Source: Methanohalobium evestigatum Z-7303
GTDB lineage: Archaea; Halobacteriota; Methanosarcinia; Methanosarcinales; Methanosarcinaceae
NCBI RefSeq assembly: GCF_000196655.1
Contig: NC_014253.1
Coordinates: forward strand, 2,125,423-2,189,422
Length of the DNA stretch: 64,000 nt
Direction: 5' to 3'
Position 1 is the first letter of the stretch. The number at the start of each line of letters is the position of its first letter. The position numbers and the translations under genes were made by a program. This document shows positions 9,660-15,328 of the stretch, piece after piece. The notes beneath the pieces are model-generated. The model was given only the letters and a program-made list of their open reading frames with translations, did not search any database and had not been told where the DNA came from.

Positions 9660-9967
9660 TCAGTTACATTCGTGAGATATACTCACCGGGTGTAACGCTA
9701 CACCCTCTATCCCATCTAAATCAGGGATTGCTTTTTTCATAATATTATAGGCACCATTTTTCTGTGTTGAGGATGTCCTACTTCGGGTATCTGGAAAAAG
9801 TTTTCATAAGATTTTGCTAACCTTATCGCCACGTTTTTCAGAACTGAAGAATAAACAGTTTTCAAAAATGGTTTTTCTTCTTTTAAACGTGGAACCTGGT
9901 TTCTCAAGTTGTATTTATTGGTGAGTTTGTTCCTACTACCATTATACTTATAGTCATATTCGACCAT
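9660..9967 (-). pseudogene. tnpB: Collapsed TnpB gene (N- and C-terminal ends joined, frameshifted)
   Basis: From 9967 the frame encodes a TnpB N-terminus (NKYNLRNQVPRLKEEKPFLK, then SSVLKNVAIRLAKSYENFF). At about 9760 it meets, in another frame, the extreme C-terminus of a TnpB of the same kind: KNGAYNIMKKAIPDL, GIEGVALHPV, then TGA at 9660-9662. Roughly 300 codons, including the RuvC nuclease core and zinc ribbon, are missing. The element therefore keeps its two ends but no working protein, like a miniature derivative of an IS200/IS605-type element. It differs from the fragment at 3920. Confidence 0.75.
9672..9705 (-). repeat. Two adjacent hairpins at the 3' end of the collapsed TnpB element
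   Basis: Bases 9688-9705 form a perfect seven-pair stem (GGGTGTA, loop ACGC, TACACCC), and 9672-9686 a perfect five-pair stem (GTGAG, loop ATATA, CTCAC). They lie within and just after the last TnpB codons. In this family that position holds the right-end recognition hairpin and the 3' part of the guide (omega) RNA, so these are probably its remains. Confidence 0.55.
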
Positions 9968-11370: not shown

Positions 11371-12774
11371 ATTATCAGAACAATATTTGCTCCGATTTTT
11401 TTGGTATTGTTCATTTTATTATTGTCTCCTGTAGTTTTTGCGGCAGAACCAACAGGTCATGGGCAGGTCTCGTCCGACCAGTTTAAAGAATCATCCCGAT
11501 GTTCCACCTGCCATGGAATAACTCACAGTCAATGGGACGGTAGTATGCATTCGAATGCATACATAGACCCCTTCTATCAAAAAGAATACCAGGTTGCAAG
11601 TGAAGATACAAATGGAAAGACAGATAAATACTGTCTGCGCTGTCACACTCCTATAGGAGTTGCCTCTGGGGAAGCGCCGGGTGAAGAACTGAGCGATGTA
11701 TCCAGAGAAGGGGTACAGTGTGATTTCTGTCACAGTGTTTCAGGAAATGCAGGAATAGGTACATCAAGTGCACCGTTCATCCTGTCACCAGGCGAAATCC
11801 AGAGGGGACCTTTAAAAGAATCCGAATCCACATATCATGATACCAAATATTCCATACTTCACACAAAATCTGAATTCTGTGGAATGTGCCATTATGTAAA
11901 AAATTCCAATGGAGTTCTTGTTGATGATACCTACAAGGTATGGAAGAACAGTTCATATTCTTCAGAAGGTACACAGTGTCAGGATTGTCATATGTCTCCC
12001 GGAATAACAAATTTTGAAATCAATCCGGGAAGGTCTGCAACAGGGGCACCTAAAAGAGACCATATTTCACTTCATTATTTTGCTGGTGCCAATGCATTTG
12101 TTACTGACATACTTGATGAGGAAACTCACAGAAAAAGAGCAATAGAACGTTTGGGAAAAGCAACTACTATGGAACTGAAATCCCCTGTAAACGCGAGTAA
12201 AAACGAAACTGTAAATGTAGAAGTAGCAATAACTAATTCAGGTGCGGGTCATAAAATCCCTACAGGGGTTTCTGAAATAAGACAGATGTGGACACGAATC
12301 TCAGTAACCGATGGGAATGGAAACCGAATATACCATACGGGTTTGATGGATAAACAAGGTAATATTGAGTCTGGGACTCATATATTTAACATGGTTCTTG
12401 GTAACAGTAAAGGGAAACAAACCCTGAAATTCTGGAACGCTGAAACTATTTTGTCTGATGACAGGATACCACCAGAAGAAACAGTTGTTCAAAAACATAA
12501 TTTTTCAATCCCTGCAGATGTAGAATATCCAATAACTGTTAATGCAAAACTACAATATCGTTCAGCACCTCAGGATGTGATAGATAGATTGTTTGGTCGG
12601 GGTACACATAAAGTACCAGTAGTAACCATGAACGAAAAAACCAGTCTTATAAGAGACCCAAACGCTTCTCGAGGCTCTTCAGTTACGCCAGGATTTGGAG
12701 TAGATGTTTTGATATTAATTTTTTCAATATTGGTGGTAATACTTTATTATAGAAACCATAAAAAGAGGGAATGA
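11371..12774 (+). CDS. Pentahaem c-type cytochrome, membrane anchored
   Basis: Exported multihaem cytochrome with five CxxCH motifs: CSTCH, CLRCH, CDFCH, CGMCH and CQDCH, all in the first 200 residues, as in the cytochrome c554-related group. A beta-rich domain follows (GHKIPTG, then WTRISVTDGNGN), and a C-terminal membrane helix with a basic tail (YYRNHKKRE). The hydrophobic signal peptide is complete only if translation starts at ATT 11371 (or ATC 11374): this adds an Arg-bearing n-region and lies six bases after GGGGGG, whereas TTG 11401 would leave no positive charge. Four-base overlap with the next flavoprotein gene. Likely function is electron transfer outside the membrane; donor unknown. 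Confidence 0.88.
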   Translation: MIRTIFAPIFLVLFILLLSPVVFAAEPTGHGQVSSDQFKESSRCSTCHGITHSQWDGSMHSNAYIDPFYQKEYQVASEDTNGKTDKYCLRCHTPIGVASGEAPGEELSDVSREGVQCDFCHSVSGNAGIGTSSAPFILSPGEIQRGPLKESESTYHDTKYSILHTKSEFCGMCHYVKNSNGVLVDDTYKVWKNSSYSSEGTQCQDCHMSPGITNFEINPGRSATGAPKRDHISLHYFAGANAFVTDILDEETHRKRAIERLGKATTMELKSPVNASKNETVNVEVAITNSGAGHKIPTGVSEIRQMWTRISVTDGNGNRIYHTGLMDKQGNIESGTHIFNMVLGNSKGKQTLKFWNAETILSDDRIPPEETVVQKHNFSIPADVEYPITVNAKLQYRSAPQDVIDRLFGRGTHKVPVVTMNEKTSLIRDPNASRGSSVTPGFGVDVLILIFSILVVILYYRNHKKRE

Positions 12775-12779
12775 TAAAT

Positions 12780-13412
12780 ATGTCTGATGATAATAATACT
12801 ATAAAACTGCTGGGTATATCAGGCAGTCCCAGAAAAAAAGCTACTGATTATATAATCCGGGAAGCTTTAAAGCATGCTGAAGAAAAATATTCGGCAGAGA
12901 CAGATTATTTTTCTGCCAGTGGAAAGGAATTAAAGTTTTGCATCCATTGTGATTATTGTATAAGGACTCAGAAAGGGTGCATCCATGAAGATGATATAGT
13001 AGACCTCTACGAAAAGATGAAGTGGGCAGATGCATGGATTATAGGAACCCCTGCCTATCAGGGTACACTCAGTGCCCAGACCAAGACTATAATGGACAGA
13101 TGTCGTGCGGTTGTTGCTCAAGACCCTAAAGTTTTTTTAAATAAAGTTGGAGCAGCTGCAGCAGTAGGTGGCGATCGTGTAGGAGGTCAGGAGCCTGCAA
13201 TACAGGCAATTCACAATTTTTATGTAATCAATGAAATGCTGCCTGTGTCTGGAGGGTCGTTTGGGTCAAATCTTGGCGGTACATTCTGGTCAAAAGATAA
13301 AGGTGGAGAAGTAGTGGGCGAAGATGAAGAAGGTCTCAGAGGTCTAAGAAGGACGGTAAAAAAATTGGTTAAAACTGCAATTCTTATGAAACAGGTTGAA
13401 AAGCAGGATTAA
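12780..13412 (+). CDS. Iron-sulfur flavoprotein (Isf-like)
   Basis: Flavodoxin-fold NAD(P)H/ferredoxin-type reductase with GISGSPRKKATDY at the N-terminus and the compact cysteine motif CIHCDYCIRTQKGC (C-x2-C-x2-C-x6-C) for a 4Fe-4S cluster, followed by IIGTPAYQGTLSAQ around the flavin. ATG 12780 fits the GAGGG at 12765-12769; the ATG at 12771 that overlaps the cytochrome stop is too close to it. About 211 residues. Between the cytochrome and an FAD oxidoreductase it is well placed to shuttle electrons in a short chain. Confidence 0.9.
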   Translation: MSDDNNTIKLLGISGSPRKKATDYIIREALKHAEEKYSAETDYFSASGKELKFCIHCDYCIRTQKGCIHEDDIVDLYEKMKWADAWIIGTPAYQGTLSAQTKTIMDRCRAVVAQDPKVFLNKVGAAAAVGGDRVGGQEPAIQAIHNFYVINEMLPVSGGSFGSNLGGTFWSKDKGGEVVGEDEEGLRGLRRTVKKLVKTAILMKQVEKQD

Positions 13413-13424
13413 ACGGAGAACAAC

Positions 13425-14123
13425 ATGGAATTTAGTGAACCGGTAACTAAGGTCATACAGAGAACTCATGATGTAAAAAGTTTCAGGTTCAATAGACCGG
13501 AGGGATTCGATTATAAAGCCGGACAATATGTCTTTATAACAATTCCTGTAAATGGAGAAATGGTACGCAAACCGTTTACCCTCTCCAGCAGTCCTACTGA
13601 AAAGAACCACCTTGAATTTACCAAAAAGCTCACAGGTCATGAATATTCCAATGTACTTGATTCAATGGGTTCAGGCGACCTTTTAAAAATTGATGGACCT
13701 TACGGGAAAATGACATTTGAAGGTGAGTATGAAAAAATAGCCCTTCTTTCCGGTGGAATAGGTATAACACCTATGATAAGTATCTGCAAATACTGTACTG
13801 ATTTAAACCTTGATACCAGTATTACTCTTGTAAGCAGCTATAAAACCGAAGATGACATTGTATTTTATAGTGAACTGGAAAACCTTCAGAAACTGAATGA
13901 GAACCTGAAAGTGGTTATTACTCTGACAAGGGCATCCAGTGAATGGTAGGGTTGCAGAGAACATATTTGTGAAAATTTAATAACAAGAGAAATACCAGAT
14001 TTTAAAGACCATATGTATTATCTATGTGGTCCACCAGGCATGGTGAATTCGGTAGTATCATTGCTGGAAAATCTTGATATCCCTCGTAAAAAAGTTAAAA
14101 AAGAACTATTTACAGGTTATTAA
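13425..14123 (+). CDS. FAD/NAD(P)H oxidoreductase (ferredoxin reductase family) with in-frame TAG codon
   Basis: Ferredoxin-NADP+ reductase-like protein of 232 codons if TAG at 13947-13949 (codon 175) is read through. Before the TAG: FAD-binding RKPFTLSSSP and NAD(P)-binding LLSGGIGITPM. After it, in the same frame, the indispensable C-terminal part follows: MYYLCGPPGMVNSVVSLLEN, then VKKELFTGY and TAA. The TAG replaces a residue between Trp and Gly where relatives probably have Lys. In a pyrrolysine-using methanogen UAG can be decoded, so this may be a pyrrolysine protein. A simple nonsense mutation (AAG to TAG) giving a dead 174-residue product is the alternative. Confidence 0.8.
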
Positions 14124-14180
14124 ATATAAAATTATTCAAATTTATATAGTTTGTCTGGAGTTTAAAAATGGAGTTTGAAA

Positions 14181-14756
14181 ATGAAAAATTTGAAAGGAAC
14201 CCAGACAGAAAAAAATTTGCTGGCAGCATTTGCAGGTGAATCACAGGCACGCAACAGATATGCCTATTTTGCATCACAGGCAAAAAAGGAAGGATATGAA
14301 CAAATAGCAGCGTTGTTCACAGAAACAGCAGAAAATGAAAAAGAGCATGGTAAAAGGCTTTTTAAGTTTTTGGAGGGAGGAGATACAGAAATAACAGCCA
14401 CATATCCTTCAGGTGTAATCGGAAATACGCTACAAAATCTTGAATCTGCAGCAAATGGTGAAAATTATGAAAACACCCAAATGTATCCTGAATTTGCAGA
14501 TATTGCTGAAACAGAGAGATTTCCTGAAATTGCATCAGTGATGAGAAATATAGCAGTTGCAGAGAAGGGACATGAAGACCGATTCCGTGCATTAATGGAT
14601 AACATTAATAATGGACAAGTATTTAAAAAGGATGAAACAGTAATATGGAAATGCAGGAATTGTGGCTATCTTCATGAAGAAATGGCTGCACCAGAGGTAT
14701 GCCCTGCATGTGCGCATCCACAGGCTTATTTTGAACTGTGGACAAAGAATTATTAA
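14181..14756 (+). CDS. rbr: Rubrerythrin
   Basis: NADH/rubredoxin-linked peroxidase of anaerobes. The four-helix ferritin-like domain has the di-iron ligands in [35 protein letters not shown] and [11 protein letters not shown]; the C-terminal rubredoxin domain has CRNCGYLH and [16 protein letters not shown] 14181 is preferred because GGAG at 14170-14173 is spaced seven bases away. 191 residues, full length. Removes hydrogen peroxide formed when flavoproteins of this island meet oxygen. Confidence 0.96.
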
Positions 14757-14776
14757 TTGATTAAGGGAGTGTGATT

Positions 14777-15328
14777 ATGGTAAAGAAAAACCGAATAGCA
14801 TGGGGTATCACAGGTTCAGGTGACCTCATAAAGGAAACATACAATACAATGGTTGATATTAAATCCAAATCCGACATTGAAACAATGGTATTTCTTTCTA
14901 AGGAAGGCGAGACAGTAATGAAATGGTATCAAATGTGGGACAGTATCCAGAAAGATTTTCCCAATTACAAAACTGAAAATGGACCCAACTCGCCTTTTAT
15001 AGTCGGACCGTTGCAGGTAGGTCATTATGATGCACTGGTTATAGCACCTGCTACATCAAATACAGTAGCCAAAATTGTTTATGGTATAGCAGATACACTT
15101 GTAACAAATACAGTGGCACAAACTGCAAAGGGTCAAACCCCTATCTATATGCTACCTGTTGACCAGAAACGTGGGTCTTTGAAATCCTATGCTCCTGGTG
15201 GGAGGGAGCTTGAACTCAAAATGCGGGAAATCGATGTATCCAACACCGAGAAACTTGCACAGATGGAAAACATACATATATTGAAAAGTTCTGAAGAGCT
15301 CTATGACATACTCGGTGTGCAAAAATAA
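14777..15328 (+). CDS. afpA: Archaeoflavoprotein AfpA
   Basis: Flavodoxin/flavoprotein-decarboxylase fold, about 183 residues. AWGITGSGD at the N-terminus, then NSPFIVGPLQVGHYD and VIAPATSNTVAKIVYGIAD match the AfpA family typified by Archaeoglobus, in which FMN is reduced by ferredoxin and electrons pass to partners such as Isf-type proteins. ATG 14777 fits GGGAG at 14765-14769. It ends the plus-strand redox series; an Isf-like gene lies three genes upstream. Confidence 0.88.
   Translation: MVKKNRIAWGITGSGDLIKETYNTMVDIKSKSDIETMVFLSKEGETVMKWYQMWDSIQKDFPNYKTENGPNSPFIVGPLQVGHYDALVIAPATSNTVAKIVYGIADTLVTNTVAQTAKGQTPIYMLPVDQKRGSLKSYAPGGRELELKMREIDVSNTEKLAQMENIHILKSSEELYDILGVQK

Follow-up and report, generated by a model that had tools for sequence, protein, structure and literature searches.

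Does the single TAG that interrupts a reading frame in Methanohalobium evestigatum Z-7303 mark a broken gene, or is it read as an amino acid? M. evestigatum is a salt-loving, methane-making archaeon, and pyrrolysine is the 22nd amino acid. An earlier note on a 64,000-nt stretch of this genome (hereafter, the window) had proposed that one TAG splits an otherwise intact, ferredoxin-reductase-like gene of 232 codons and could be decoded as pyrrolysine. The gene model was upheld: start, TAG and stop lie where the note placed them, the TAG is the sole in-frame interruption, and the read-through translation (232 residues) carries the CGPPGM nucleotide-binding end after the TAG (Table 1). Pfam models FAD_binding_6 and NAD_binding_1 both matched the read-through product, the latter over residues 107-210 (E = 1.4e-18), i.e., across the TAG, and 28 other Methanosarcinaceae sequences aligned across codon 175 without gaps there or nearby. 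The 57 open codons that follow the TAG would count for little by themselves, since the genome is AT-rich and 56 of 378 TAA- or TGA-ended genes in a 464-kb sample of it have at least 50 open codons past their stops. Because homology continues across the TAG, however, we accept that a real gene is interrupted. The frame was described as undamaged and we agree; the codon usage score is 0.41 5' of the TAG and 0.34 3' of it, and no sign of decay was seen in the 3' portion. Termination at the TAG would yield 174 residues and, as judged from the alignment, cost the protein a section of its NAD(P)H domain, CGPP included.

Table 1. Coordinates (window numbering) of the interrupted oxidoreductase gene and its neighbors.
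Feature	Position	Strand	Remarks
Isf-like (iron-sulphur flavoprotein-like, FMN_red) gene	12771-13412	+	Compact CX2CX2CX6C motif; directly upstream of the oxidoreductase gene, in a conserved cluster
FAD/NAD(P)H oxidoreductase gene (FNR / cytochrome b5 reductase-like)	13425-14123	+	ATG at 13425, TAA at 14121-14123; 232 codons through the TAG; assigned by Pfam, alignment and predicted fold
In-frame TAG, codon 175	13947-13949	+	CAG (Gln) in sister Methanohalobium
NAD(P)H-binding domain portion 3' of the TAG	13950-14120	+	Contains CGPPGM
Rubrerythrin	14175-14756	+	Frame open from TTG; ATG at 14181
Archaeoflavoprotein AfpA	14771-15328	+	TIGR02699 above cut-off; conserved cluster position

FAD_binding_6, NAD_binding_1 and the fold together place the gene product in the ferredoxin/cytochrome b5 reductase superfamily, as a two-domain FAD/NAD(P)H oxidoreductase. 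An AlphaFold model built with 35 aligned sequences was confident (mean pLDDT 95.5) and showed two domains, with NADH-cytochrome b5 reductases as the best fold match. Residue 175 falls in a mostly loop stretch of this model, between strand 161-167 and helix 183-189. Fold and domains are shared with members of the NADH-cytochrome b5 reductase / FNR superfamily (PDB 2eix and 7tnv; P. furiosus SHI gamma, 9nez), although identity to these proteins is just ~23-29% and the window protein does not have the added [2Fe-2S] tail. We also considered PyrK, the electron-transfer subunit of dihydroorotate dehydrogenase, and rejected it: the score of 84.8 bits fell short of the family cut-off (224), and the C-terminus (KKELFTGY) lacks the cysteine cluster of PyrK's C-terminal [2Fe-2S] site.

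Pyrrolysine could be inserted only if the host can decode UAG, and the earlier note had supposed a Methanosarcinaceae origin and had called for a search for pylTSBCD. The origin was correct, with 97% nucleotide identity over 6.7 kb between this genome and a Methanohalobium metagenome-assembled genome (MAG), and the pyl set is complete: tRNA-Pyl(CUA) was found, PylS, PylB, PylC and PylD all scored above curated cut-offs, and each of the two mtmB genes contains a single TAG. The adjoining pylT and pylS (L058) and the separate run of pylB, pylC and pylD (L161) lie ~0.6 Mb apart, rather than in a single pylTSBCD operon. M. evestigatum was also among 13 genomes surveyed previously and is named there as a pyrrolysine organism (PMC3639795). 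To gauge the use of TAG as a stop, we sampled the window and 20 spaced stretches of 20 kb each, in total 464 kb or 19% of the genome, and took long, non-overlapping ORFs of at least 120 codons as genes. TAG ended only 4 of 382 such genes, compared with the 17.5% share of TAA/TAG/TGA triplets that composition would give it (P ~5e-26), and two of these four are themselves read-through genes. In the flanks of other Methanosarcinaceae loci, TAG ended 28 of 155 genes. Thus, within the sample, UAG has largely been vacated as a stop codon. Since the pyl set is complete and UAG is nearly vacated, reading as pyrrolysine is the likeliest fate of the codon.

Comparison with relatives indicates how the TAG arose. 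The sister Methanohalobium MAG protein is 96% identical to the window copy, and where the earlier note had looked for Lys or TAG in sister species, codon 175 of the sister is CAG (Gln). Among 27 further Methanosarcinaceae orthologues, the residue at this position is T in 13, K in 6, Q in 4, E in 2, I in 1 and N in 1, and it is flanked in the protein alignment by near-invariant W174 and G176. By sequence comparison, then, the TAG is a single C-to-T change (CAG to TAG) in the window lineage at a variable site. The two genes differ at 13 other codons (5 synonymous, 8 replacement). At the 8 replaced residues the sister is the more divergent copy, with about five departures from the family consensus against about one (E9K) in the window copy; the lineage with the TAG thus shows no decay. 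After the TAG, dN/dS is 0.19, a value from 5 changes, which are too few to be statistically meaningful; since the sister comparison holds so few substitutions, a very recent knock-out could look alike.

The oxidoreductase gene occurs in 70 of 112 genomes of the family, and just one other orthologue carries a TAG (genome G089, L155:3001-3690). That TAG is at codon 34, in the GQY motif of the flavin domain, where it replaces a Gln invariant in the alignment. Two TAGs at two positions, both Gln in relatives, look like drift, unlike a conserved site. A dedicated pyrrolysine function, as in mtmB, was therefore rejected: the UAG is not conserved across orthologues, and a dedicated site is at odds with the sister's Gln and the variable residue elsewhere. 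Absence of the TAG from other strains had been named as a refutation of the pyrrolysine proposal. The TAG is indeed absent from sister Methanohalobium, but this points to a recent, incidental codon and is no argument against its being decoded.

Similar codons occur elsewhere in the sample. A sensor histidine kinase with a PAS domain (1063 residues; L062:7849-11040) has a TAG at codon 200 as its only interruption and is likely a second gene with incidental pyrrolysine; the codon is GAA in a homologue from a different genome. A gene for a TnpB family RNA-guided nuclease (L061:5976-7292) also carries a TAG, where two paralogues have CAG: a full-length copy, 95% identical, and a shortened copy in the window (9737-9967, minus strand). 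The frames of these other TAG-bearing genes are intact 3' of the TAG. Three incidental TAGs per 382 sampled genes would extrapolate to an order of 15-20 genome-wide. UAG might even be an ordinary pyrrolysine sense codon, gained and lost by genes through drift, leaving the reductase, the PAS histidine kinase and TnpB dependent on pyl, although we regard this broader reading as unlikely. If it were true, pyl dependence would couple redox, sensing and transposition to methylamine metabolism. A 2025 report is said to propose archaea in which every TAG codon is pyrrolysine; if such a code holds for this genome, the oxidoreductase gene is an instance of it. Our searches of the literature available to us gave nothing further on a genome-wide pyrrolysine code.

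Taken together, we consider it probable that the UAG is read as pyrrolysine, giving a full-length oxidoreductase in which the residue is incidental. A Gln codon mutated once, from CAG to TAG, in the window lineage; ribosomes would most likely insert pyrrolysine at codon 175 and complete the protein; and the pyrrolysine, in a predicted loop of the NAD(P)H domain where the residue varies, would probably be neutral and without a special role. The lineage-specific TAG, the tolerant site and the frame intact on both sides are the features of an incidental (neutral) pyrrolysine. No special mRNA element was apparent when the 120 nt from the TAG were folded (z = -1.2, unremarkable), and for mtmB the downstream mRNA element is reported as not essential (PMC2933860). 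The UAG could nevertheless also give a substantial truncated product.

The most serious alternative is a nonsense mutation, in which UAG mostly terminates, the 174-residue product is dead and the gene is a fresh pseudogene. The sister and all family orthologues but one do without the TAG, truncation would take away CGPP along with other NAD(P)H-domain sequence, and two cases with short extensions in the sample suggest that a few UAGs may still be stops. We nonetheless consider a pseudogene unlikely, given the full pyl apparatus, the extreme scarcity of TAG stops, the lack of any other lesion, the conserved operon position and the intact sequence that other TAG-bearing genes keep past their TAGs. 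That pyrrolysine 175 is functional, or that the UAG is a regulatory switch giving full-length reductase only when pyl is expressed (e.g., on methylamines), would accord with the regulated pyl expression documented in Acetohalobium (PMC11467909), with the gene's place inside a redox cluster and with the TAG in the G089 orthologue. Yet residue 175 varies among relatives, Gln occupies it in the sister, the G089 TAG falls at a different codon, and we saw nothing conserved that selection could have kept, all of which make this reading very improbable. A sequencing error, with C as the true base and CAG as the codon, would need just one base to restore the sister codon, but the assembly is near-complete (two contigs), CAG-to-TAG changes of this sort are also seen in genes unrelated to this one, and with 13 more codons of the gene differing between window and sister, real substitutions far outnumber expected errors. 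We hold it to be extremely unlikely.

As incidental pyrrolysine, the codon has a precedent in Thg1 (tRNA-His guanylyltransferase) of Methanosarcina, where pyrrolysine arose by neutral evolution (Heinemann 2009, as cited in PMC3639795 and PMC8211752). Thg1, as described there, likewise has an in-frame UAG outside methylamine metabolism that is not conserved in relatives and is thought to reflect incidental read-through; it is a different protein, and in the window gene decoding is predicted from sequence. The window gene is likely a new case of this Thg1-like kind. The methylamine methyltransferase genes mtmB, mtbB and mttB share with it the codon and the proposed decoding machinery, but their UAG is conserved and their pyrrolysine catalytic, whereas here the codon is lineage-specific and the site variable. 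Read-through candidates reported in PMC1242214 (97 ORFs with read-through similarity in M. acetivorans and 87 in M. mazei) and PMC3639795 are the same class of finding. Oxidoreductase, ferredoxin and FAD are not among the words used in the main text of PMC3639795, and its supplementary ranked list may already include the window gene. If translated, the gene would add one more natural pyrrolysine protein outside methylamine metabolism, and the clean CAG/TAG pair of sister species lends itself to studying how a near-empty stop codon fills with pyrrolysine by drift. It is also a warning that annotation pipelines will label such genes as truncated or as pseudogenes.

The gene was placed by the earlier note between Isf and rubrerythrin, and its neighbors are indeed an Isf-like FMN_red protein and rubrerythrin. 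They belong to a Methanosarcinaceae-wide redox cluster of a cytochrome c-like protein, the Isf-like flavoprotein, the oxidoreductase, rubrerythrin (in some genomes) and AfpA. The TAG-bearing G089 orthologue lies outside the Isf/AfpA cluster. One contig labelled as a Candidatus Dojkabacteria MAG (L031) is identical to Methanosalsum natronophilum (L030) in match scores and in the residues of the codon-175 region and is probably mis-binned.
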